Source: Saccharopolyspora erythraea NRRL 2338 (GTDB lineage: Bacteria > Actinomycetota > Actinomycetes > Mycobacteriales > Pseudonocardiaceae). Taken from it: a DNA stretch of 64,000 nucleotides. A model generated the notes under the pieces. It was not told the DNA's origin and did not search any database. It saw nothing but the letters and a program-made list of their open reading frames with translations. Location of the stretch: positions 2,655,584-2,719,583 of the forward strand of contig NC_009142.1 in assembly GCF_000062885.1 (NCBI RefSeq), given 5' to 3'. Position numbers and translations under genes: made by a program. This document shows, in pieces, positions 4,716-23,919 of the stretch; the stretch's first letter is position 1, and each line of letters begins with the position of its first letter.

Positions 4716-4729
4716 GGGACCGTCGCCCC
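4716..4729. promoter_or_regulatory. Candidate DosR/OsdR-type box upstream of USP gene
   Basis: GGGACCGTCGCCCC matches a GGGACC-NN-GGTCCC dyad at 10 of 12 defined positions. It ends 54 bp before the GTG of the USP gene at 4784, a typical activator distance. Suggestive only; the regulator gene is not in the window. Confidence 0.28.
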
Positions 4730-4783
4730 TGGGGGGGTGGACGCCATGTCTGCGGCGTCGTCGAGTCCACGGGGAGGACCGCG

Positions 4784-5239
4784 GTGAGCGAGGGTGCGGA
4801 GCGGGTCGTGGTCGGAGTGGACGGTTCGCCAGGTTCCAAGGCGGCACTGGAGTGGGCTCTGCGGTACGCGGACAAGACCGGCGCCCGGATCACGGCAGTG
4901 GCCGCGTGGACCGTACCGATCTACTACGGCGACGTGATGACGCCGCTTCCCCTCGAGGACTTCGGTGACCAAACCGAACGGGGACTCAGCCGGTCCGTCG
5001 AGGAGGTCACCGCAGCGCTGGGGACCGATGTTCCGGTGGAACGCCGCGTCGTCCAGGACATCCCGGCGCGGGCGTTGGTGCGCGCGGCCGAGGGCGCGGA
5101 CCTGCTCGTCGTGGGCAGCCGTGGGCATGGTGGGTTCGTCGGGACGCTGCTGGGCTCGGTCAGCCAGCACTGCGTGCACCACGCCCCGTGCCCGTTGGTC
5201 GTGGTCCGCCCCGCCGAACGGGAGGGCGCTGGGTCCTAG
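4784..5239 (+). CDS. Universal stress protein, single domain
   Basis: A 151-residue single UspA domain: VVVGVDGSPGSK at the N-terminus, VVGSRGHGG and LLGSVSQHCVHHAPCPLVVVR at the C-terminus. The ATP-binding glycine pattern is complete. It is very like the USP at 93-527, including the shared QHCVHHA stretch, which suggests a duplication inside the island. GTG 4784 follows a GGGGAGGACC purine tract. It sits about 100 bp behind the MgtE-like gene, enough for its own promoter, and runs convergently into the nitroreductase gene ending at 5244. The function beyond nucleotide-binding stress response cannot be read from sequence. Confidence 0.92.
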   Translation: MSEGAERVVVGVDGSPGSKAALEWALRYADKTGARITAVAAWTVPIYYGDVMTPLPLEDFGDQTERGLSRSVEEVTAALGTDVPVERRVVQDIPARALVRAAEGADLLVVGSRGHGGFVGTLLGSVSQHCVHHAPCPLVVVRPAEREGAGS

Positions 5240-6353: not shown

Positions 6354-6367
6354 TGGCCGTTGGTCCC
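6354..6367. promoter_or_regulatory. Candidate DosR/OsdR-type half-palindrome
   Basis: TGGCCGTTGGTCCC in the divergent region between the nitroreductase (6242, minus) and the kinase/P-loop gene (6442, plus). It matches GGGACC-NN-GGTCCC at 9 of 12 positions, with a perfect right half. Placement 75 bp before the plus-strand start suits regulation. Weak evidence on its own. Confidence 0.22.
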
Positions 6368-6441
6368 TGCCCCGTGAGACTCGCGCGGGGGATGGTTCGG
6401 ATGCACGTGCAAGGCTGTCCGCCCTGGTGGAGGTGACCTGG

Positions 6442-7959
6442 ATGGTTCACGCCGAAGAGGACTCCGGTATCCGCCCCTCGCCCCGGACCTCGACTGACGT
6501 GGGGGCCGCCGGCATCGCGGAAAGCCACTGCGCCGTGGTGGCGTTCATCGGCGACCGCGCCTACAAGGTCAAAAAGCCCGTCGATTTCGGATTCCTCGAC
6601 TTCAGCACCGTGCAGGCGCGGGAAACGGCGTGCCGACGCGAGCTGGAGCTCAACCGCAGACTGGCCCCGGACGTCTACCTGGACCTGTGCCGCGTGCTGG
6701 ACGGTACAGGCGGCACCTGCGACTGGATCGTCGTCATGCGGCGCATGCCCCCGTCACGTCGGCTGTCGGAGCTGGTGCGCACCGGTGCCGACGTGCGGCC
6801 CGACCTGGAGAAGCTCGCCCGGCTGCTCGCCTCGTTCCACAGCACCGCCCGCAGCGGGCCGGACGTCGCCGCCGAGGGACGGGCATCCGCTTTGCGCCGC
6901 CGGTGGGTCGACAACTTCGCCGGTGCGGAGCGGTTCGTCGGCACGGTGCTCGACCGCGGGCAGTTCGACGAGATCGTCGGTCTCGCCCTGGCCTACGTCG
7001 ATGGGCGGGGCCGGCTGCTCGACGAGCGCATCGGCCGCGGCTACGTCGTCGACGGGCACGGCGACCTGCTGGCCGAGGACATCTTCTGCCTGCCCGACGG
7101 GCCCCGGGTGCTGGACTGCCTGGAGTTCGACGACCGCCTGCGCTACGTGGACGGGCTCGACGACGCGGCGTTCCTGGCAATGGACCTCGAACGCCTCGGC
7201 GCACCACGGCTGGCACACCAGTTCCTGCGCTGGTACCGGGAGTTCTCCGGTGCGCAGGTGGCCGACTCGCTCGCACACCACTACACCGCCTACCGGGCGT
7301 TCGTGCGAGCCAAGGTCGCATGCCTGCGCGCGGCGCAGGGGGCGGCGGAAGCGGCCGATGCCGCTCAGCAGCTCAGCGGCATCGCGGTACGGCACCTGCG
7401 TGCCGGCCAGGTCCGGCTGCTGCTCGTCGGAGGCCTGCCCGGGACCGGCAAGACAACCCTCGCCGGTGGCTTGGCGGACCAGCTCGGTGCGGTGCTGCTG
7501 CGCACCGACGTCATCCGCAAGGAAATGCCCGGCGCCGACGACCTGGCCACTCACGCCGGCTACGGCCAGGGGCTCTACAACGGCAGCCAGGTCCACGGCA
7601 CCTACGAGGCGATGCTCACCCGCTGCCGTGCACTGCTCGAGCGAGGCGAGACCGTTGTGCTCGACGCGAGCTGGAGCAGTGCGGGGGAGCGCGAGTCGGC
7701 GCGGTCGATCGCGCAGGACACGCACTCGGCGTTGGCCGAGCTGCGATGCGTCGCGCCGCGGGAGGTCGCCGAAGCGCGTATCGCGGGCCGCTACGGCGAT
7801 GTCTCGGATGCCACAGCCGATGTCGCGGTTGCGATGAGCCGGCACTTCGACGACTGGCCGCAGGCCACCGACGTCGACACCACCCGGCCGCCGGACGAGT
7901 CGGCGCGGGAAGCGCGATCGGCCATCGAAGCCGCGACCTCCCCACCGGCGGTGCTGTGA
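6442..7959 (+). CDS. Rv2004c-like fusion: aminoglycoside-phosphotransferase-type kinase domain plus P-loop ATPase domain
   Basis: A 505-residue two-domain protein. Residues about 25-340 resemble the APH/choline-kinase fold: a lysine-containing strand (YKVKKPVDFGFLD) early and the catalytic-loop-like HGDLLAED near residue 210, then DCLEFDDRLRYVD. Residues about 345-500 form a zeta-toxin/AAA-like P-loop kinase with Walker A GGLPGTGKTTLA, LRTDVIRKEM and VVLDASWSS. Length and domain order match the DosR-regulon protein Rv2004c (498 aa). The substrate is unknown for the family. ATG 6442 is preceded by GGAGGTGA at good spacing. Divergent from the Acg-type gene; the convergent MgtC-like gene follows. 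Confidence 0.87.
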   Translation: MVHAEEDSGIRPSPRTSTDVGAAGIAESHCAVVAFIGDRAYKVKKPVDFGFLDFSTVQARETACRRELELNRRLAPDVYLDLCRVLDGTGGTCDWIVVMRRMPPSRRLSELVRTGADVRPDLEKLARLLASFHSTARSGPDVAAEGRASALRRRWVDNFAGAERFVGTVLDRGQFDEIVGLALAYVDGRGRLLDERIGRGYVVDGHGDLLAEDIFCLPDGPRVLDCLEFDDRLRYVDGLDDAAFLAMDLERLGAPRLAHQFLRWYREFSGAQVADSLAHHYTAYRAFVRAKVACLRAAQGAAEAADAAQQLSGIAVRHLRAGQVRLLLVGGLPGTGKTTLAGGLADQLGAVLLRTDVIRKEMPGADDLATHAGYGQGLYNGSQVHGTYEAMLTRCRALLERGETVVLDASWSSAGERESARSIAQDTHSALAELRCVAPREVAEARIAGRYGDVSDATADVAVAMSRHFDDWPQATDVDTTRPPDESAREARSAIEAATSPPAVL

Positions 7960-11332: not shown

Positions 11333-12166
11333 ATGGTGGGAGATTCGCCGGTGCTGGCCGGTGTGGACGGATCCGAGCAGGCCGTGGTGGCCGCGGAGTG
11401 GGCGGCTGAGGAGGCCGATCTCCGCGGTGCGCCGCTTCGGCTGCTGGCGGTCGGTGACCACCCGGACCGCGAGGAGGAGCTGTGGGAGGCGCTGTCGCAG
11501 GCGGCTGATGGGTGCCGTGCACAACGACCGCGCGTGGAAGTCGTGGAGGAGATCCGCCAAGGGGCCGCGACCTCGGAACTGATCCGGTGTTCCAGTGGTG
11601 CACGGCTGCTGGTGGTGGGCTCGCACGGGCGCGGCCGGGTGGCCGAGACACTGCTGGGGTCGGTCAGCAGGGCGGTGGCGATGCACGCCCGGTGCCCGGT
11701 GGTCGTCGTCCGCGACCGGCGCCGCAGTTTCACGGTCGGCCCCGTGGTGGTCGGCGTGGACGAGTCCGCGCCGAGCCGGGAGGCGCTGCGGTTCGCCTTC
11801 GAGTCCGCCTCGGCACGGCGGGCGAACCTGGTGGCGTTGCACGTGTGGCGACCTGTCCGCGCCGAGTACTCGTGGGTCGACGCGCCCTCCGGGGCCATCT
11901 GGTTCGACCTGGACGACGCTCAGCGCTCCCTGGCCGGTCAGCTGGACGCGGTGCGTGCGTCGTTCCCCGGCGTCGAGGTGCACTCCGAGGTGCGTTACGG
12001 GCATCCGGTGGACGAGCTGACGTCTGCTGCCTCCCACGCCCAGTTGCTCGTCGTCGGCCACCGCGGCGCCGGTGGGTTCGAGCGGCTGCTGCTGGGCTCG
12101 GTCGCCGACGGGGTCCTGCACCACGCCGAGTGCCCGGTCGCCGTCGTCCGCGGCGGTTCCGGGTGA
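11333..12166 (+). CDS. Universal stress protein, tandem domains
   Basis: A 277-residue protein with two UspA domains (about 1-135 and 138-277). Both keep the start strand (VLAGVDGSEQAV; PVVVGVDESAPSR) and the C-terminal ATP loop (VVGSHGRGRVAE, LLGSVSRAVAMHARCPVVVVR; VVGHRGAGGFER, LLGSVADGVLHHAECPVAVVR). ATG 11333 agrees with USP N-termini, with a weak GGGGTG upstream. A nitroreductase gene follows on the same strand after about 100 bp containing two alternative hairpins. The promoter is probably shared with the divergent SpoIIAA-like gene in the 218-bp gap before it. Confidence 0.92.
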   Translation: MVGDSPVLAGVDGSEQAVVAAEWAAEEADLRGAPLRLLAVGDHPDREEELWEALSQAADGCRAQRPRVEVVEEIRQGAATSELIRCSSGARLLVVGSHGRGRVAETLLGSVSRAVAMHARCPVVVVRDRRRSFTVGPVVVGVDESAPSREALRFAFESASARRANLVALHVWRPVRAEYSWVDAPSGAIWFDLDDAQRSLAGQLDAVRASFPGVEVHSEVRYGHPVDELTSAASHAQLLVVGHRGAGGFERLLLGSVADGVLHHAECPVAVVRGGSG

Positions 12167-12206
12167 GAAAGAAGCGCCGCGGCCCCTGCCGATGGCTTTG
12201 TTCCCT

Positions 12207-12246
12207 GGCACCGAGTCCCCGACGCAGGCACGTTGGCGTCGGTGCC
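12207..12246 (+). promoter_or_regulatory. Two mutually exclusive hairpins between USP and nitroreductase genes
   Basis: CCGACGC (12219-12225) pairs perfectly with GCGTCGG (12236-12242) around a 10-nt loop. GGCACCGA (12207-12214) pairs perfectly with TCGGTGCC (12239-12246) around a 24-nt loop. The 3' arms overlap by four bases, so only one stem can form at a time. There is no U-tract, so simple intrinsic termination is not evident. It lies 25 bp before the nitroreductase start and could be an attenuator, a processing site or an operator. Confidence 0.35.
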
Positions 12247-12270
12247 GACCACATCCGTGAGGGGTGTTCG

Positions 12271-13272
12271 ATGACCGGGAGAAGTGAACCGTCGCAGGAG
12301 ACGATGCGTTCGGCGCTGGCACTGGCGTGCCGGGCACCGTCGGTGCACAACAGCCAGCCGTGGCGGTGGAAGCTGGCCGAGCACTCGGTCCAGCTCTACG
12401 CCGACCGTTCACGGCTGCTGCCCGTGCTCGATCCGCTCGGGCGCGAGATGGTGATCAGCTGCGGTGCCGGGCTGCACCACGCGAGGGTGGCGTTCGCGGC
12501 CGAGGGGTGGCGTCCGATCGTGCACCGCGTGCCCAATCCCGCCCAGCCCGACCACCTGGCGTCGATCGAGTTCAGCAGGCTGTCCGAGGTGGACGACGAG
12601 GCGGTGCGGCTCGCCGCGGTCGCCGTCGATCGCCACACGGATCGCAGGCCGTTCCTGCCCGATCCGGTTCCGCCGGACCTGCTCGAGTCACTACGCGTGT
12701 TCGCGCACTCGGCAGGAGCGCGGCTGGTGTTGGTGTCAGACGAGTCCACGCGCAGGGAGGTCGAACTCGCGATCCAGCACGCGGGCTCGGTCGAACGCGC
12801 TCGACCGGAGTACCGCCGGGAACTGGCCGAGTGGAGCGGCACGCACGTGCTGGCGGAGGGAGTTCCCGCGCGCAGCCTGCCGGAGCGGAGTCCGTATCCG
12901 AGGGGGATGGCCGAGCGCGACTTCGGTGAGGTCGCTGAGGGGGAGTTGCCGGTACCGGTGCTCGACGACGGTGCGGTGCTGGCGGTGCTGGCCACCGGGG
13001 GAGACACCGTGTCCGACTGGCTGGGGGCCGGCGAGGCGTTGAGCGCTGTGCTTCTCGCGGCGACGCGCGAGGGACTGGCGACCTGTCCGCTGAGCCAGGT
13101 CAGCGAGGTCGCCGAAGCGCGTGATCAGGTGTGTCGGCAGGTGCTCGGGGGCGCCGGTGTGCCCCAGTTGGTGGTCCGCGTCGGATGGCCGGTGACGGGC
13201 GAGTTCCCCGCCGTGCACACGCACCGCAGGCCGCTGTCGGAGTCGGTCGAGCCCCTGTTCGCGGATCGGTGA
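12271..13272 (+). CDS. Acg-family nitroreductase-like protein (copy 3)
   Basis: A 333-residue Acg-type protein: CRAPSVHNSQPWRW near residue 20, DRSRLLPVLDPLGREMVISCGAGL near residues 45-68, DRHTDRRPFLPDP near 115 and AGEALSAVLLAATREGLATCPLSQ near 265. Closest in motif detail to Rv3131/Rv2032-type proteins. GAGGGG is placed upstream of ATG 12271. Convergent with the PEP synthase gene, 7 bp between stops, no obvious terminator. Together with copies 1 and 2 it makes three divergent Acg genes in 11 kb. Whether it reduces nitro compounds or only sequesters flavin cannot be told. Confidence 0.88.
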   Translation: MTGRSEPSQETMRSALALACRAPSVHNSQPWRWKLAEHSVQLYADRSRLLPVLDPLGREMVISCGAGLHHARVAFAAEGWRPIVHRVPNPAQPDHLASIEFSRLSEVDDEAVRLAAVAVDRHTDRRPFLPDPVPPDLLESLRVFAHSAGARLVLVSDESTRREVELAIQHAGSVERARPEYRRELAEWSGTHVLAEGVPARSLPERSPYPRGMAERDFGEVAEGELPVPVLDDGAVLAVLATGGDTVSDWLGAGEALSAVLLAATREGLATCPLSQVSEVAEARDQVCRQVLGGAGVPQLVVRVGWPVTGEFPAVHTHRRPLSESVEPLFADR

Positions 13273-13279
13273 GGTGCGC

Positions 13280-15574
13280 TCAGGTTCTCGTCCGGGCTGC
13301 CTCCAGGAGCACCCGCCGTTCCGCGCTGTCCACGGTGCGGCGCACCGCGGCGACCGCGTCGGGGTTGACCGAGATCGACGTGATGCCCAGCCGCACGAGG
13401 TGTTCGGCGAACGCGGGATCGCGGGACGGTGCCTGACCGCACAGCGACGAGGTGATGCCCGCGCGGCGGGCAGCGGACACGATGCGCCCGATCGCGTCCA
13501 GAACCGCTGGGTCGCTCTCGTCGAACAGGGGAGCGCACAACTCCGAGTCCCGGTCCACGCCGAGGACGAGCTGGGTGAGGTCGTTGCTGCCTATGGACAC
13601 GCCGTCGATGCCGAGACCGGCGTACACCGGCAGCCAGTACTGCACCGACGGCACCTCGGCCATGACCCAGCGCCGCAGTCCGCGATCCCGGCCCAGGCGG
13701 CTGCGGTCCACCTCCTCGAGGCACTGTTCGAGCTCCCAGCGGGTGCGGACGAAGGGGATCATCAGATGCAGGTTGGGCGTCGCTTCCCGCACGCGCGCCA
13801 GCGCCTCCAGTTCCATGCGGAACAGCGACGGGTCCTGGACGTAGCGGTAGCAGCCGCGGTAGCCGATCATCGGGTTGTCCTCGGTCGGCTCGTGCTCCTC
13901 TCCACCGGTCAGGTGGCGGAACTCGTTGCTGCGGAAGTCCGCCGCCCGGTAGACGACGGGTCGGGGCATGAATGCCCCGGTGATCGACTTCACGGCCGAC
14001 ACCAGAGCGGTGATCGCCCCCTCGCGGCCGTCGCGGGCGAGCACCCGCCCGGGGTGTTCACCGCCGAGCGCGTCGGTCAGCAGGAACTCCGCGCGCAGCA
14101 GCCCGACCCCGTCGACGTCCATGGCGGCCACTTCTCCAGCGCGTTCGGCCATGGCCAGGTTGACGTAGATGCGGGTGGCCAACGACGGTGCCGGGCCGGT
14201 GGCGGCGCTGGGACGTTCTCGCCCCGAAGTGGTGACCGCGGTGGCGGTTTCCTCGGTGACCGTGCCGCTGGAGCCGTCGACGGTCACCCGCATGCCGTCG
14301 TGCAGGTCCTTGGTGGCGCTGCGGGTGCCGACCACGCACGGCAGGCCGAGCTCGCGCGCCACGATCGCCGCGTGGCAGGTCATCCCACCGCTGTCGGTGA
14401 CCAGCGCGGCGGCCTTGCGGATCGCGGGCAGCCAGTCGGGCGCGGTCATGGGAGCCACCAGGACATCGCCGTCGTGCAGGTCACCGGACTCGGCCGGCGT
14501 CCTGATGACCCGCACCGGCCCCGACGCGGTGCCGAAGGAAGCACCAAGACCGGAGGCCAGGGCGGTGCCCTGGGCGCCGTGCTGCTCGTGGGTGGCCAGC
14601 GTGGTGATCGGACGCGACTGCAGCAGCCACAGCTTGCCGTCGCAGATCGCCCACTCGACGTCCTGCGGAGCACCGTAATGCTCTTCCACTCGCACCAGCA
14701 GGCGTCCCAGATCGCGCAGGTCGGCGTCGCCGAGCGTCCGCCGCTCGGCTTCGCCGGTGATCTCGATCCTCCGCTGGTGGCCGCTCTCGTCACGTGCGAT
14801 CTTGTGCGTTTTGTGGCCGATGTTCATGTCCAGCAAGCGGAGGTCGGCTTTGCGGATGGTGTAGGTGTCGGGTTCGACGGCGCCCGACACCACCGACTCG
14901 CCGAGCCCGAAGCTCGCCTCGACCAGCAGCTCCTCGCGCGAGCCCGTCGCCGGGTTCGCGGTGAAGGCCACGCCGGAGGTGTCGGCGTCGACCATCGACT
15001 GCACGATCACCGCCATCGCCGGTGCCTCGCGGACGTCCTGGGCAGCCCGGTAGGCGAGCGCTCGGGGGCTGAACATCGAGGCCCAGCAGTCGACCACCCG
15101 CTCGGCGAGCTCCTCCTGGCCGGTGACGTTGGTGTAGCTGGCGTTGACCCCGGCGAAGGACAGGTGCGGGGCGTCCTCGGCGGTGGCGGAAGAACGGACC
15201 GCAACCCGGTCGTGGTGGTCCAGTTCGGTGTATGCCTTGTCGAGGGCTGTTCTCACCTGTGCGGACACCCCCGCCTGGTGGACCAGGTCCCGCAGCCGGT
15301 CGCTGACCGCGGACAGGCTGTCCGGGTCGTTGACGACTCGGGCCGCCTCGGCGAGCTGCTGATCGAGCTCCCGTTGGATGTCCGCCTCCCGCAGTGAGGT
15401 GCGGAAGGCCTCGACGCTGACCACGAAACCGGGTGGGACCGGGAAGCCGGCGCCCGTCAGCTCACCGAGGTTGGCCCCCTTGCCCCCGGCGACGGGTACG
15501 GCTTTGATATCGATCTCGGTCAGCCACCGGATCCACTCCACCCCCGGCTCTCGTTCGCTCACTTCTGCGCACAT
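13280..15574 (-). CDS. ppsA: Phosphoenolpyruvate synthase
   Basis: A 764-residue PEP synthase (pyruvate, water dikinase), converting pyruvate plus ATP to PEP, AMP and Pi for gluconeogenesis. Domains in order: ATP-grasp N-terminal domain ([22 protein letters not shown]), swivelling His domain with the phospho-histidine motif [14 protein letters not shown], and a C-terminal PEP/pyruvate TIM barrel ending [18 protein letters not shown] and the S-I-S-VNPD pattern. Length is close to the usual 790. The start at ATG 15574 is supported by AAGGAG. An 18-bp near-perfect palindrome lies 65 bp upstream. Its location inside a dormancy-type island suggests a role in carbon rerouting under low oxygen, which is inference. 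Confidence 0.93.
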
Positions 15575-15638
15575 GGTCGTTCGTGCTCCTTCGTCGACGC
15601 CTCGCGCCCATAACGAGTCTCTTCCCGGCACGCTGGAG

Positions 15639-15656
15639 CGGCACGTTGACGTGCCG
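15639..15656. promoter_or_regulatory. 18-bp palindrome upstream of PEP synthase gene
   Basis: CGGCACGT-TG-ACGTGCCG: 8-bp perfect arms around two bases. A direct copy of CGGCACG lies at 15626-15632. It sits between the DUF1918 gene and the PEP synthase start (65 bp upstream). The form fits a dimeric repressor or activator site better than a terminator, as no T-tract follows. Confidence 0.45.
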
Positions 15657-15679
15657 GTGCGTCAGGGCACCCCCCGGGG

Positions 15680-15922
15680 TCACCGTCCGGTCGCGTCGGC
15701 ATGCGATGCGCGCGGAGGAAGCTTCAGGTGGTGGGGAAGGGATTTCTCGGCATGGGTGTCGGGGCCGGGGAAGAACAGGCTGACGTGGCCGTCGTCCAGC
15801 CAGTGGACCATGTACGGGGGTTCTCCGTCCGGGCCGCGCACTTCGGTGATCTGGCCTTTGCGGCGGTGGTCGTCGAGGTGGACGCCTTCGACGATCAGCC
15901 AGTCGCCCACTTGTGCTCGCAT
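15680..15922 (-). CDS. DUF1918 domain small protein
   Basis: An 80-residue protein. The first 60 residues match DUF1918: MRAQVGDWLIVEG, then a charged turn, KGQITEVRGPDGEPPYMVHW and DDGHVSLFFPGPDT. The C-terminal 20 residues are basic and unstructured. The fold is a small SH3-like barrel; function unknown, though mycobacterial members cluster with stress genes. AAGGAG precedes ATG 15922. The gene lies between the phosphoribosyltransferase and PEP synthase genes on the same strand. Confidence 0.88.
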   Translation of the reverse strand: MRAQVGDWLIVEGVHLDDHRRKGQITEVRGPDGEPPYMVHWLDDGHVSLFFPGPDTHAEKSLPHHLKLPPRASHADATGR

Positions 15923-16011
15923 GATCTGCTCCTTCGGCCTGCTGAGGTCAGCCTCGCCACGGCCGGCCGCCGCCGAGTAGGGGACAACGGCCCGGTGTGC
16001 CGCTACTCGTC

Positions 16012-16719
16012 TCAGCGCAGGTCTCGGGATTGCGGAGCACCGCCTGCGCCCGGCGACTGAACGGCGCGGCGGAGCAGCCGGCTCACCTCGGCGTCGCGGA
16101 CCGGGGGGAAGCAGCGGTACGACCGGCTGATGGGCTCGGCCGGACCCACCGTGGCCAGGCACACCTGCTCGTCGGTGACCTCTTCCAGGCGCTCCAGCGC
16201 CTGCGGTGGCGCCACGGGTACGGCCAGCACCACCTCTGCGGCGCCGAGTTCGTGGGCGACGCGGCAGGCGGTGTGCGCGGTGGAGCCGGTCCTGATTCCG
16301 TCGTCGACGACGATCGCCGTTCGCCCCCGCACGTCGGTCCGGGGTCGATTTCCTCGGTAAAGATCGGCGAGCCGGGCGAGTTCGCTTCGGGCGTCGCGTA
16401 CCGCGTCGGCCAGTTCGTCCGCGCCGACGCCGGTGCGCCACAGCACCTCGTCGTCGATGAGGCGGACGTCCTGCTCGCCCACAGCACCCAGGTTGATCTC
16501 CGGGTGGTGTGCGACGTGGAGCTTGCGCACCACGATCACGTCCAACGGGGCCCGCAGCATCCGGGCCGCTTCGAACGCGACCCCGATGCCGCCTCGTGGC
16601 ACGCCCAGCACAACCGGATCCGTCCAGGTGCCCCGGGCCAACCGGTGCCCCAATCGCTGTCCGGCGTCGGTGCGGTCATCGAACACCACCGCCTCGTGGC
16701 AGCCCTCGCCGCTTGTCAT
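16012..16719 (-). CDS. Phosphoribosyltransferase-domain protein (Rv0571c/Rv2030c type)
   Basis: A 235-residue type I phosphoribosyltransferase-fold protein. The PRPP loop is TAIVVDDGIRTGST near residues 135-148, and the N-terminal VVLGVPRGGIGVAFEAAR and VVRKLHVAHHPEINLGAVGE are the family hallmarks of the DosR-regulon proteins Rv0571c and the N-terminal part of Rv2030c. The base or sugar acceptor is unknown. The C-terminal erythromycin-esterase part of Rv2030c is absent. Its ATG overlaps the TGA of the upstream Pup gene (ATGA), so translation is coupled to Pup. No ribosome binding site of its own is needed in that arrangement. Confidence 0.88.
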   Translation of the reverse strand: MTSGEGCHEAVVFDDRTDAGQRLGHRLARGTWTDPVVLGVPRGGIGVAFEAARMLRAPLDVIVVRKLHVAHHPEINLGAVGEQDVRLIDDEVLWRTGVGADELADAVRDARSELARLADLYRGNRPRTDVRGRTAIVVDDGIRTGSTAHTACRVAHELGAAEVVLAVPVAPPQALERLEEVTDEQVCLATVGPAEPISRSYRCFPPVRDAEVSRLLRRAVQSPGAGGAPQSRDLR

Positions 16720-16904
16720 TCGCCGCCCTTCTGGATGTATGAGCGCACGAACTCGACCGCGTTCTCCTCCAGGACCCCGTCGATCTCGTCCAGCAGCTCA
16801 TCTGTGTCGTCGCCGACGGTGGTGTCCCGCGCTCGGCCGGCCGGCGCCGGCTCGGGCGGCTCGTCGTCCTCACGGCCGTGGCGCTTGGGCTTCTCCTGGC
16901 GCAT
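16716..16904 (-). CDS. pup: Prokaryotic ubiquitin-like protein (Pup), orphan or paralogous copy
   Basis: A 62-residue protein with the Pup hallmarks: an acidic, disordered N-terminal half followed by a conserved helix region TDELLDEIDGVLEEN and the C-terminal FVRSYIQKGGE. It ends in Gly-Gly-Glu, so it would not need Dop deamidation before PafA ligates it to lysines of target proteins, marking them for the mycobacterial-type proteasome. Pup genes normally stand between dop and prcBA. Here the gene is coupled by an ATGA overlap to a phosphoribosyltransferase inside a stress island, so it is either a paralogue or a relocated gene. ATG 16904 is preceded by GGGAGGGA; a longer frame upstream lacks support. 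Confidence 0.93.
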   Translation of the reverse strand: MRQEKPKRHGREDDEPPEPAPAGRARDTTVGDDTDELLDEIDGVLEENAVEFVRSYIQKGGE

Positions 16905-17101
16905 TGATCCCTCCCGAGTGCGGATCGGCCACGGCCGAATGGTCGCGACGGCGATCGGGCATGGACAGGGCACTTCGTCACCACGGGGCGCTCGCACTGC
17001 GAGGCCTTCGAACCGTCATACCCGGCGGCCACGGGGCCGGTGTGGAACGCCTCCATCGTTCTCACCCCCGTGCCTCACGTCGAGGAGCATCGAGCCAAGC
17101 G

Positions 17102-17115
17102 GGGACCAAGGACTC
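17102..17115. promoter_or_regulatory. Candidate DosR/OsdR-type box
   Basis: GGGACCAAGGACTC matches GGGACC-NN-GGTCCC at 10 of 12 positions. It lies 60 bp before the SHOCT-domain gene and about 200 bp before the divergent Pup gene. Suggestive but not decisive. Confidence 0.28.
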
Positions 17116-17174
17116 TGGTGCTCAGGAGCGGTGCACTCGAGTCTCTGCATCACAGGCGTCGAAGGTTGGTCGCG

Positions 17175-17426
17175 ATGATGTGGGGTTGTGGGCCCGGCTC
17201 GGCGTGGATGATGTTCGTGCCGGTGATCTGGCTCGTGCTGCTTGGCTTGATCGTGTGGGCTGTTGTCGTGTTGACCCGGGGCGGGGGCCGGTGGCATGAC
17301 CGGCAAGACCGCCCGGACACACCCGAGGACATTCTGCGACGGCGGTTCGCAGCTGGAGAGATCGACGCGGACGCCTTTCGGCAGGCGCGAGAATCATTGG
17401 CCGAGCGGCGTCCGGGATCTTCGTGA
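17175..17426 (+). CDS. Single-pass membrane protein with SHOCT domain
   Basis: An 83-residue protein: one membrane helix near residues 8-34 (MMFVPVIWLVLLGLIVWAV) and a C-terminal SHOCT motif (PEDILRRRFAAGEIDADAF, then an amphipathic tail). SHOCT helices are short oligomerisation modules; the partner is not known. Start is one of two adjacent ATG codons at 17175/17178, with a weak GAAGG upstream. The stop overlaps the start of the next gene (TGATG), giving a two-gene operon of small envelope proteins. Confidence 0.75.
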   Translation: MMWGCGPGSAWMMFVPVIWLVLLGLIVWAVVVLTRGGGRWHDRQDRPDTPEDILRRRFAAGEIDADAFRQARESLAERRPGSS

Positions 17427-18106
17427 TGACCGTACCCGGTGACCGTTGGTTCCCAGCGTCCGTGCTGGTCCTCGCCATTGCGGCTCTGATCGCCTCGATC
17501 GTCTGGGTGGCAGGCGGCGAAGGCCTGCGCGGGTCGCTCGATGGGCCCTGCTGGAGCGGAACGCCCATGACACCAGGCCCAGGTGGGATTGTGCCGAACA
17601 CGCCAGGAGATGGACCAGTGCGCTCCTTCGACGACGCTCGCCGGGCCGCGGACCGGTTCGCACAGCAAAGGGGACTGAGCACCGGGGAGATCATGCAGTT
17701 CAGCGACGGCTACTACGCCGAGCTCCTGGACCCGCACGGCCGTGGCGCCACCGAGATCCTCATCGACCCCACCAGCGGCTTCGTCCGACTGGAGATGGGC
17801 CCGGCAATGATGTGGAACACCACGTACGGGATGATGGCCACTACGCCGCAATCCAGCTTGTCGTCGGTGAGCCCCGACCAAGCGCTGCGGATCGCCGATC
17901 GATGGCTGGCCCAGAACTTTCCCGGCCTGCACGCCGCCGACCCAACTGCGTTCCCCGGCTATTACACTCTGCACACCCTCCGCGGTGATCAGGTCGTCGG
18001 AATGATGTCGGTGAACACGCAGACGGCAGCAGTCTGGTATCACACCTGGCACGGGCAGTTCGTCGCGATGCAGGAAGCTCCTGCCGTGTCCAGCACACCT
18101 GGGTAG
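17426..18106 (+). CDS. Membrane-anchored extracytoplasmic protein of unknown function
   Basis: About 226 residues. One hydrophobic helix (FPASVLVLAIAALIASIVWVAGG, described in pieces as residues 9-31) anchors a presumably exported domain. That domain contains a Met-, Tyr- and Trp-rich stretch (MMWNTTYGMMATT) and a helix-strand repeat pattern SPDQALRIADRWLAQNFP plus GDQVVGMMSVN that resembles PepSY-like folds. Met- and His-rich surface segments could bind copper, but no firm motif is present. Translation starts at a TGATG overlap with the SHOCT gene (GTG 17423 is an alternative). Confidence 0.7.
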   Translation: MTVPGDRWFPASVLVLAIAALIASIVWVAGGEGLRGSLDGPCWSGTPMTPGPGGIVPNTPGDGPVRSFDDARRAADRFAQQRGLSTGEIMQFSDGYYAELLDPHGRGATEILIDPTSGFVRLEMGPAMMWNTTYGMMATTPQSSLSSVSPDQALRIADRWLAQNFPGLHAADPTAFPGYYTLHTLRGDQVVGMMSVNTQTAAVWYHTWHGQFVAMQEAPAVSSTPG

Positions 18107-18556
18107 AGGCCCCGCGGAGTACGTGCTCATGGGCCACGCGCGTGGATTTGGCCATCAACAGCAACAGCATCGGGTCTGCCTCGTTCGTCGTACGAGTCAT
18201 CGGCTTCACGCCACAGCCGCACCCGGCCGTTTCCGGCGGTACGGCGACGTGTGCCTGGCGAGCGAGAAACCAGGGCCGACAAGGTTCGCGTTGGTCGTAG
18301 ACAGGCATTGCGGTGGCGATCACCTGCGCGCAACGGGGAAGACCGCGCCACCGACGCCGGATCTCGACGGTGTGCCAGCGGTTCGGCTGTTCCAGCCGCG
18401 AGCCCCGGCACCCCGGCCTCGCGCGGATTGAGGACGCAAACGACCGAGATCCTCTCGCCAGGTCGAACAGGAAACGTCCCCTGCACTCGGTGTGCCCGAC
18501 GGTCGTGCGCGCTCCACCATGGACCCGTCGCGTGCGATGGATGGAGGCGGAGGGCC
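18107..18556. other. 450-bp stretch without a convincing gene
   Basis: Open frames exist on both strands but none has a ribosome binding site or recognisable domain. The start of the following USP gene is placed at GTG 18557 because the frame upstream of it reads as low-complexity Arg/Ala/Pro. The promoter of the USP gene is expected in the last 150 bp; I see no clear dyad there. Confidence 0.5.
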
Positions 18557-19444
18557 GTGGCGGGACGCAAGCCGGTCGTCGTGGGATTCGACCGTTCCAC
18601 GCGGTCACGCGAGGCCGCCGCCTGGGCGGCGCGGGAGGCGTCGAGCAGGCGACTCCCGCTGCTGCTCACTCACGCGGTCGGGTGGCCGTTCGTGGCGCAG
18701 GCACCCATCCGGGTGGCTGCCGACAACCGTGTTCGGGAACCGCTGCGCGAGATCCTGGAACGCGAACTGGAGCAGATGGTCGCCGCGTGCGAGGAGGTCT
18801 ATCCCGGGCTCGAGGTGCGCGGCGAGCTCGCGTTCGGGGACCCGGTCGAGGTGCTCAGGCGCTTGGCGTCCGATGCGGAACTGCTCGTGCTGGGTGGTCC
18901 GCGTGTCGAGGACGACCTGAGCTTCGTGGGTTCGACCTCGGCCGAACTGCTGTCCCACCGCTCGGGCGTTCCGGTTGTGGTGGTCCGGGGAGGCCGGGTA
19001 CAGCCGGCCTCGTCGGCGCCTGTCGTGGTCGGTGTCGACGGATCGGCGAACAGCGCGCTCGCGATCGGATTCGCATATGACTTCGCCTCCCGCCATGGCG
19101 CCGAGCTGGTGGCCGTGCACGGGTGGAGCGACCTGCTCCCGGATCCGTTCGTGCGGGTGCCGGACTGGGATCGCGTCCGCGAAGACGCACGCACCCAGGC
19201 CGAGGAACTCCTCGCAGAGTCGGTCGCGGGGTGGGCCGAGCGGTATCCCGATGTCTCGGTGCGTCGGGTGTTGACGCCGGACAAGCCTGCTGACGCGCTG
19301 CTGGAGCAGGCCGGGCAGGCGGGTCTGCTGGTCGTGGGTAGCCACGGCCGCGGTCCCGTCCGGCGCACGTTGCTCGGTTCGGTGAGTCACGCCGTGGTCA
19401 ACAGGTCTCCGTGCCCGGTCGCGGTGCTACGCGCACCGAAGTGA
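18557..19444 (+). CDS. Universal stress protein, tandem domains
   Basis: A 295-residue double UspA protein. Domain 1 (VVVGFDRSTRSR, with a degenerate end LVLGGPRVEDDLSFVGS and SGVPVVVVR) lacks the full glycine-rich ATP loop, so it probably does not bind ATP. Domain 2 is complete (VVVGVDGSANS; VVGSHGRGPVRR, LLGSVSHAVVNRSPCPVAVLR). GTG 18557 follows GGAGGCGGAGGG. Convergent with the next USP gene, 10 bp between stops. The loss of the ATP pattern in one half suggests a regulatory or structural role for that half (inference). Confidence 0.91.
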   Translation: MAGRKPVVVGFDRSTRSREAAAWAAREASSRRLPLLLTHAVGWPFVAQAPIRVAADNRVREPLREILERELEQMVAACEEVYPGLEVRGELAFGDPVEVLRRLASDAELLVLGGPRVEDDLSFVGSTSAELLSHRSGVPVVVVRGGRVQPASSAPVVVGVDGSANSALAIGFAYDFASRHGAELVAVHGWSDLLPDPFVRVPDWDRVREDARTQAEELLAESVAGWAERYPDVSVRRVLTPDKPADALLEQAGQAGLLVVGSHGRGPVRRTLLGSVSHAVVNRSPCPVAVLRAPK

Positions 19445-19454
19445 GGCTCTGGCT

Positions 19455-20270
19455 CTACGGCATGCGCACGACGGCCACCGGGCACGGCGCGTGGTGCAGC
19501 ACTCCGGAGGCCACCGAGCCCAGGAACAGTGTTTCGAAGCCCCCGCGACCGCGGTGTCCCACGACGAGCAGCCGCGCGTCACGAGCGGCGTTGGTCAGTG
19601 CCGCGACCGGATGCTCGTGTAGGACGACTTCCCGTGTCCGGACCTGCGGGTGCTGCTCGCGTAGCTGTGCGGTCTGTTCGGTCACCGAGCGTTCGACCTC
19701 CCGCTGGACCTGCTCCGGGTCAGGAGCCGGGATCAGTTCCGTGAGCAGCCCCTCCTCGTGCCATGCCTGCAGCACTACCAGCTCGGCGCTCGTCCGGGCT
19801 GCGGATTCGAAGGCGAACTCGAGTGCTCGCGTGCTGGAGGCTGAACCGTCGACTCCGACGACGACGGGGCCGACGGAGGTCGGGATACTCCTGCGTACGA
19901 CGACCACTGGACAAGCGGCGTGAGTGGCCACCGCCGTGCTCACACCACCGAGCAGGGCGTCGGTGAAGCCGCCGTGGCCTCGGGCGCCCAGGACGAGCAT
20001 CTGGGCGTGTTCGCTCCGGCGCAGCAGTTCCTCGACTGGATGGCCCTCGGCGACCTCGGACACGACCTCGATGCCGGGTTCCTGCGCGGTGCAGGCCCGA
20101 GCCGCCTTCTGCACCGCCTGCTGGGCATACTCCGCCCGGGCGGGATCGTCGTTGACGAGCAACAGGGTCAGGCGGGCGTGTCGCCTCGCCGCCTCCGAAG
20201 TGGCCCACCGGACGGCTTTGAGGGCGTCGTCGGAGCCGTCGACCCCGGCGATGACTGGTCGGTCCGTCAT
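19455..20270 (-). CDS. Universal stress protein, tandem domains
   Basis: A 271-residue double UspA protein: VIAGVDGSDDAL with LVLGARGHGGFTD, LLGGVSTAVATHAACPVVVVR in domain 1; PVVVGVDGSASS with VVGHRGRGGFET, LFLGSVASGVLHHAPCPVAVVR in domain 2. Both ATP loops look intact. ATG 20270 overlaps the stop of the USP gene before it by four bases (ATGA) and is preceded by GAGGAGGAAGG, which lies inside the upstream gene. The pair forms a two-gene USP operon, with the CtpF-like ATPase gene also upstream on this strand after a 98-bp gap. Confidence 0.92.
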   Translation of the reverse strand: MTDRPVIAGVDGSDDALKAVRWATSEAARRHARLTLLLVNDDPARAEYAQQAVQKAARACTAQEPGIEVVSEVAEGHPVEELLRRSEHAQMLVLGARGHGGFTDALLGGVSTAVATHAACPVVVVRRSIPTSVGPVVVGVDGSASSTRALEFAFESAARTSAELVVLQAWHEEGLLTELIPAPDPEQVQREVERSVTEQTAQLREQHPQVRTREVVLHEHPVAALTNAARDARLLVVGHRGRGGFETLFLGSVASGVLHHAPCPVAVVRMP

Positions 20271-21106
20271 CCTTCCTCCTCCTCGGCTACTCCGCCGCGG
20301 AGCACGGCCACCGGGCACGATGCGTGGTGGAGGACGCCTGCGGCGACCGAGCCGAGCATCAGCCCGGCGAATCCTCCTCGCCCACGGTGGCCGACGACCA
20401 GCAGCCGCGCATCACGAGCCACGTCGACGAGTTCGGCCACCGGATGTCCTCGCGGCGTGCTCCTGCGGACCGCGACGTCGGGGTACTGCTCGGTCCGGCC
20501 GTGCAGTCCGTCGGAGAGCTCGCGCTGGGCTTCTTCCCGCAGCGCGATCGCCTCGAAGTTCAGCGTGGGCACGCTCGGGGCGTATCCGACGTCCGGCCAC
20601 ACCCGCACCGCGACCAGCCCGGTGCCGTAGCGGTGGGCGGCGTCGAGGGCGAACCCCAAGGCAAGACGGCTCTGCGGTGAGTTGTCGAGCCCGACGACCA
20701 CAGGACCTGCGGTCGGGCGCCCTCGCACCACGACGACCGGGCCGTGCGCGTGGGTGGCGACCTTGGTGCTGACCGAACCGAGCAGTACCGCGCTCAGACT
20801 GCTTCGCCTGCGCGGTCCCACCACCGTGAGCTGCGCGTCGCCGGACGCGCTGACCAGTTCCTCGGCCGGATTGCCGTGCGGGATCCGCACCGAGATGTCC
20901 AGTACGGGGTGGCGACTCCTCAGCCGGCCCGCGAGCTCAGCGAGCGCCGCGGATGCTTCGGCTTCCTCGGCCGGACCGCGGATGACCCGGATGAGGCACA
21001 GGTTCTGCGCTCGGCGCAGCACGGCCTCGTCGGCGGCCCACGCCGCGGCGTCGGCGGAGTCCGCCGATCCGTCCATCCCCGCCACCAGGCGCGCCTCGAC
21101 CCCCAT
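20267..21106 (-). CDS. Universal stress protein, tandem domains
   Basis: A 279-residue double UspA protein. Domain 1 starts LVAGMDGSADS and has a weakened loop (VVGPRRRSSLSA, LLGSVSTKVATHAHGPVVVVR). Domain 2 starts PVVVGLDNSPQS and ends VVGHRGRGGFAG, LMLGSVAAGVLHHASCPVAVLR. It ends in an acidic EEEEG tail. ATG 21106 follows a GGGGGTGGG tract. The gene lies 98 bp downstream of the CtpF-like ATPase gene on the same strand, mirroring the M. tuberculosis pair Rv1996 (double USP) and Rv1997 (ctpF). Confidence 0.92.
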   Translation of the reverse strand: MGVEARLVAGMDGSADSADAAAWAADEAVLRRAQNLCLIRVIRGPAEEAEASAALAELAGRLRSRHPVLDISVRIPHGNPAEELVSASGDAQLTVVGPRRRSSLSAVLLGSVSTKVATHAHGPVVVVRGRPTAGPVVVGLDNSPQSRLALGFALDAAHRYGTGLVAVRVWPDVGYAPSVPTLNFEAIALREEAQRELSDGLHGRTEQYPDVAVRRSTPRGHPVAELVDVARDARLLVVGHRGRGGFAGLMLGSVAAGVLHHASCPVAVLRGGVAEEEEG

Positions 21107-21204
21107 CGACCCACCCCCATGGGAACGCTGTGTGCGCCGCTATCAGTACTGGGGCGGGCGCGCGCCGGGTACGGCCGCTTGGCCCTTGCGCCCGGGCTGC
21201 CCGG

Positions 21205-23919
<2,715 letters not shown>

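Follow-up and report, generated by a model that had tools for sequence, protein, structure and literature searches.

What use could a bacterium have for a second gene encoding Pup, the small protein tag that is the bacterial counterpart of ubiquitin and that is disordered when free? The question is raised by a gene of Saccharopolyspora erythraea that lies among stress genes in a 64,000-nucleotide stretch of its DNA (the window, to which all coordinates below refer unless a locus is named). The gene occupies positions 16716-16904 of the minus strand, including the stop codon; the sequence upstream of its ATG start is GGGAGGGATCA, and it encodes 62 amino acids with the C-terminus KGGE, the PupE form. 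We assign it from its Pfam match, its translation, and its placement in a tree with non-canonical Pups of the same genus group.

The window gene is a real second Pup. Its product matches Pfam Pup (PF05639) at 74.9 bits (E 1e-20), above the curated cut-off of 27, and NCBIfam pupylate_cterm (TIGR03687) at 63.1 bits (cut-off 41.45), and its KGGE end agrees with the GG[E/Q] C-terminal criterion for Pup. Because it shares 65-69% identity across residues 1-62 with its nearest homologues from other genomes and its reading frame is unbroken, it is not a chance open frame. Pup chains of solved structures align over its whole length, and its C-terminal half is Pup-like throughout. Ahead of the conserved helix, the window Pup diverges (RARDTTV versus approximately QDRRDEL in relatives), and its branch in the tree is long. 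The initial annotation of this DNA had correctly given the coordinates, a Pup of the FVRSYIQKGGE type, and an ATGA overlap with the following gene; the strand, which it left unstated, is minus for both genes.

That annotation had also proposed that this Pup might be a second one, and a search of the one-contig genome (8,212,805 bases) bears this out, with two Pup matches. The other pup stands in canonical order, between a Pup_ligase-family gene (dop) and a pair of proteasome-subunit genes, and another Pup_ligase-family gene (pafA) follows downstream, so that PafA and Dop are both encoded at that locus, the labels dop and pafA being taken from gene order. The idea that the window gene is a relocated housekeeping copy is ruled out by this separate dop-pup-proteasome locus. 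In the 64-kb window, Dop, PrcB, and PrcA gave no tblastn match (E 1e-6), which places the window pup outside the housekeeping dop/prcBA setting. The two Pups share family, length, conserved helix, and GG[E/Q] end. Unlike the canonical pup, however, the window gene does not adjoin dop or proteasome genes and has a putative dormancy-type box upstream, and its product reads VRSYIQ rather than VRAYVQ and ends in Glu, whereas the canonical Pup of the same genome ends in Gln (KGGQ).

Extra Pups are common in Saccharopolyspora and rare elsewhere. In the family, Pup is present in 384 of 390 genomes and is found two or more times in 28 of the 390, one of these 28 (G216) being multi-Pup by the family search with one match by protein search. 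Genus group g36 (Saccharopolyspora), with 22 genomes, accounts for 18 of the 28; its members include S. spinosa, S. ipomoeae, S. indica, and S. hirsuta. Outside the family, two Pups were found in 1 of 318 genomes from other families of the order and in 0 of 180 from other orders of the class. Among named genomes, the best 80 of 547 confirmed loci comprise 76 canonical loci and 4 without dop/prc matches, all 4 from Saccharopolyspora. Several single cases may be added. In the draft genome G318, both Pups (L086 and L100) lie at proteasome loci, one on a 3.7-kb contig, and contamination may be involved. In G359, a member of g36, there are six Pup matches (L015, L066, L067, L076, L078, and L095), and one of them, with a broken C-terminus, lies about 20 kb from an intact one. 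Three extra Pups (L083:6690-6875, L088:9853-10038, and L096:9894-10082) end in KNGQ, not KGGQ.

One account of such a gene would be that it is an equivalent extra copy that raises only the supply of Pup, its island and its box reflecting the place where it landed. The Pup-like C-terminal half would fit this account, as would copy numbers of 1 to 6 in a single genus group and the fact that a genus-mate (G373) manages with one Pup; the DNA of that genome matches window positions 12000-21500 without the stretch holding the second pup and the following gene, except for matches to its own canonical pup. But the extra Pups differ as a group from the canonical ones. VRSY is found in all 15 Pups that are preceded by a dormancy-type box (box-type Pups, below) and in 14 of the 22 other non-canonical Pups, whereas 53 of 54 canonical rows, counted without merging those from the same gene, have VRAY, and a tree of 60 Pups keeps the canonical set apart (94/87). 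We thus regard a role in dosage alone as unlikely.

In the same tree, which is built on 64 columns and in which many forks are unresolved, the window Pup, 11 box-type Pups, and L073 form one clade (95/82), and nine others are grouped (87/89). Three Pups, L095 and L099 with broken or frame-changed ends and the distant L098, are absent from the tree but retained when the classes are counted. The box-type Pups L093 and L097 stand apart; since they lie outside the clade of the window Pup, the tree suggests that dormancy-box wiring may have arisen more than once. Glu is the commoner C-terminal state in the clade of the window Pup (9 of 13) and is no rule for stress Pups. A GGE end is shared by the window Pup and the 8 Pups closest to it; these occur in 7 genomes, in all of which the canonical Pup ends in GGQ. 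Within the clade, L070, L071, and L079 are Gln-ended and L073 is also GGQ, and a GGQ end is found in 6 of the 15 box-type Pups. In S. ipomoeae, the arrangement is reversed, with a canonical Pup in GGE and an extra Pup in GGQ.

The surroundings of the window pup suit a function in stress. The initial annotation had rightly placed it in a stress island. The genes around it encode universal stress proteins, nitroreductases, a DUF1918 protein, a PEP-synthase-like enzyme, and a cation ATPase, and genes of the universal stress protein, nitroreductase, and PPDK types are company typical of the OsdR and DevR regulons (PMC5069765). On one side of pup lie genes for a universal stress protein (11351..12166, plus strand; cluster C0, whose representative is Pfam Usp), a nitroreductase-family protein (12271..13272, plus; Pfam Nitroreductase, 75.6 bits), an enzyme like PEP synthase or pyruvate phosphate dikinase (13280..15574, minus; Pfam PPDK_N, PEP-utilizers, and PEP-utilizers_C), and the DUF1918 protein (15680..15922, minus; 97.2 bits). 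On the other side is a divergent gene for a short membrane or SHOCT-like protein (17175..17426, plus; SHOCT E 0.00019 and 21.5 bits, under the curated cut-off of 27; cluster C8, found in 5 loci). Between the latter gene and pup, 19 codons at 17000-17056 on the minus strand (MEAFHTGPVAAGYDGSKAS) are likely what is left of the 5' end of a universal stress protein gene. Their best blastp-short match (E 0.026, versus E 0.091 for the best of 20 shuffles) is the N-terminus of the universal stress protein whose gene immediately precedes the L067 pup in the same orientation, and the window remnant is in the same place. Farther off, positions 6427-7959 encode a 510-residue protein with an AAA_33 or zeta-toxin-like P-loop domain, with a dormancy-type box 56 bases upstream. 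A comparison of neighbours up to 8 genes from pup in 37 non-canonical and 4 canonical loci, with genes in the fetched loci called by a simple custom script, found universal stress proteins at 12 of the 37 non-canonical loci (the window included) versus 0 of the 4 canonical loci; nitroreductases were near pup in 8 of the loci compared, and SHOCT-like proteins in 5. In the clade of the window Pup, 9 of 13 have a universal stress protein nearby, with none near L062, L064, L065, and L068.

An OsdR/DevR-like palindrome lies ahead of most of the 13 Pups of this clade, with the consensus GGGCCGATCGGCCCT at 91 to 170 bases before the start in the other genomes. DevR/DosR is a dormancy regulator whose Streptomyces counterpart, OsdR, has, in excerpts of a paper on it, the binding consensus AGGGCCGATCGGCCCT and predicted sites before universal stress protein, nitroreductase, and pyruvate phosphate dikinase genes (PMC5069765). 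We made a matrix from ten sites upstream of such Pups, all from other genomes, and a second version with the sites cut unaltered from the loci. Applied to the window, it places a box (GTGACGAAGTGCCCTGT) at 16965..16981 on the minus strand, 60 bases before the pup start codon. With the first version this box scores 13.4 and ranks first in the window; with the unaltered sites it scores 13.3 and ranks second, just below a site inside a gene (2117). Further boxes precede the SHOCT-like gene at 17175 (17102..17118, plus, 56 bases before it; score 11.6-12.0), the DUF1918 gene (15977..15993, minus, 54 bases before it; 11.4-11.8), a universal-stress-protein-like gene at 4784 (4716..4732, plus; 12.4-12.8), the gene at 6427 (6354..6370, plus; 11.9-12.0), and a universal stress protein gene at 20267-21106 (21169..21185, minus; 11.7-12.0). 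A site like these also lies 61 bases before a gene just beyond the window (L107).

The case for the motif rests on placement and on other genomes and not on counts, because simple pattern counts show no excess. The matrix has 8 hits in the window and equally 8 in one shuffled copy. The strict DosR pattern GGGACNNNNGTCCC, with 1 mismatch allowed, has 5 matches in the window versus 6.8 expected, and GGGMCNNNNGKCCC occurs 120 times per strand in the whole genome versus 279 times for the reversed control. The window box is a poor palindrome, and the best match of the published OsdR 16-mer upstream of the window pup, 12 of 16 at -28, lies at another place than the matrix site and is not outstanding. 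As to placement, 6 of the 8 top matrix hits in the window, the pup box included, lie 45-70 bases before start codons, a number reached by 0 of 1000 column-permuted matrices; the result is the same with the unaltered sites and for the best 5, 8, 12, and 20 hits, and when the test is loosened to placement between genes, the real matrix is equalled by 1 or 2 permutations in 1000. As to other genomes, with the pups and their boxes excluded, 18 distinct sites scoring at least 13 precede the 266 genes of 16 island loci, versus 1 before the 410 genes of 22 other loci (15 versus 1 with the first matrix version), the island loci having been chosen by us and including L073, the pup of which lacks a clear box. 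Matches of at least 12 of 16 to the published consensus within 200 bases are found for 14 of 37 non-canonical Pups (including the -28 match in the window, which is distinct from its matrix site), 1 of 76 canonical Pups, and 66 of 1850 shuffles. The division of non-canonical Pups into those with a box (15) and those without (22) was set after the upstream sequences had been viewed, so comparisons between these classes are descriptive, and the permutation test in the window and the other island genes are the more independent tests of the box.

A stress-specific Pup had been one of the two readings offered by the initial annotation, and the island setting and the placement of the dormancy-type box lend it support. 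We consider it probable that the window Pup is a dormancy Pup of an OsdR/DevR regulon, made directly in the ligatable Glu form. From the sequences we infer the following course of events. At low oxygen or during growth arrest, an OsdR-like response regulator would bind the box before pup and induce the gene together with those for universal stress proteins and nitroreductases. The Glu-ended product could then be ligated by PafA with no prior deamidation by Dop, as had been suggested from its terminal residue and as would fit the account of PupE in the excerpts of a 2012 review (PMC3511204). Because the Dop step would not be needed, tagging capacity would rise quickly, while the housekeeping PupQ would meanwhile depend on Dop. 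The conjugates would presumably take the same Mpa/ARC-proteasome route.

A second Pup is in itself not new, because the same review, in the parts available to us, already reports the presence of two pup genes, PupQ and PupE, in some organisms, which is exactly the combination in S. erythraea, and names S. erythraea as having duplicated parts of the pupylation system (PMC3511204). Those parts do not mention the position, the regulon, or the promoter of the second gene. They also describe the Pup of Corynebacterium, which, like the window Pup, is made directly with Glu, but which is the Pup of a pafA-linked locus, in contrast to an extra copy in a stress island (PMC3511204). The OsdR study has in common with the window a similar box consensus, the distance to start codons, and the universal stress protein, nitroreductase, and pyruvate phosphate dikinase genes. 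In the excerpts, its Table 1 lists no pup, and proteasome genes appear once, among downregulated genes where the osdR mutant is discussed (PMC5069765). The S. erythraea PafA homologue is treated in a 2008 paper, as seen in its excerpts (PMC2588565). A 2021 review on pupylation in stress makes no mention of Saccharopolyspora, PupE, two pup genes, duplication, hypoxia, or DosR (PMC8223512), and the word pup does not occur in a 2013 article about targeted degradation at the metabolic switch of S. erythraea (PMC3610266). Among the titles and abstract openings searched in the open-access literature, none concerned a copy of Pup belonging to a dormancy or sigma-B regulon. What is new here is how the extra Pups are wired and their expansion in one genus.

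The fate of the conjugates could also differ from that just outlined. In this alternative, the window Pup would be ligated yet poorly recognized by the proteasomal ATPase, and would mark or store proteins in dormancy. Within the window Pup, the residues preceding the conserved helix are the most altered, and they fall in the segment of Pup present in entry 3m91, which we take to be the complex of Pup with Mpa. The 8 closest relatives, however, retain the DRR-type stretch, so drift confined to a single lineage may account for the change, and we consider a separate fate distinctly improbable.

The gene that follows pup (16012..16719, minus) encodes a 235-amino acid protein with a phosphoribosyltransferase domain (Pfam Pribosyltran, 49.7 bits, cut-off 26.3), and its start overlaps the pup stop, minus-strand bases 16719-16716 reading ATGA, in which TGA ends pup and ATG begins the phosphoribosyltransferase gene. 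The initial annotation saw here a possible functional link between Pup and ribose metabolism, to be judged accidental if homologues showed no conserved adjacency. Joint action, with the phosphoribosyltransferase tagged or regulating, is very improbable, for although the overlap suggests joint translation in the window and three other loci (L070, L071, and L078) have a phosphoribosyltransferase within 2 genes of pup, these three genes lie upstream on the opposite strand, and in none of the other 36 non-canonical loci that were fetched does a match follow pup (tblastn, E of 1e-6 or lower). A functional link is thus rejected for want of conserved adjacency, and by the annotation's own standard the coupling looks accidental; the phosphoribosyltransferase gene would be a plain island gene that became coupled to pup in the lineage of the window.

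If the window Pup is a dormancy Pup as we favor, it may be one of several kinds. Using a pattern that we take to be of the sigma-B type (G[TA]T, 13-18 bases, GGGTA), we found a promoter beginning 58 to 82 bases upstream of the start codon in 12 of the 22 non-canonical Pups classed as lacking a box, in 0 of 15 box-type Pups, in 3 of 76 canonical Pups, in 10 of 2200 shuffles, and before 44 of 711 other genes. The Pups with this promoter (L074-L076, L080, L081, L084, L085, L087-L089, L092, and L096) are at other loci than the dormancy-box Pups. Some of the Pups without a box are neighboured by SpoIIE-GAF and HATPase_c_2 proteins. It is conceivable, though we put it somewhat below an even chance, that in Saccharopolyspora and near relatives Pup is a set of isoforms, comprising dormancy-box Pups (often pre-activated PupE), sigma-B-type Pups, and a dop-linked housekeeper. 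In that case the timing of tagging, and perhaps its targets, would depend on which isoform is used and, with it, on whether Dop is required.

More broadly, these sequences suggest that some bacteria may keep a separate, ready-to-use Pup for hard times. A pup under a dormancy box beside a Dop-dependent housekeeper would make state-dependent switching of pupylation directly testable in a non-pathogenic antibiotic producer. There is also a warning for pupylomes based on trypsin. Lysine precedes GGE in each of the two S. erythraea tags, and both would leave GGE on the modified lysine, so such data would be blind to which tag had been attached.

Finally, a response regulator gene (L071:10301-10984) lies directly downstream of the extra pup of S. 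indica. Its product has two relatives in the S. erythraea genome, 56 and 54% identical, the next being 41% identical, and these two, encoded at genome positions 176860-177477 and 3847160-3847780, are candidate OsdR-like regulators. One of them is encoded 1.5 kb from a GAF-HisKA_3-HATPase kinase gene, near genes that we read as cytochrome bd oxidase and hsp20.
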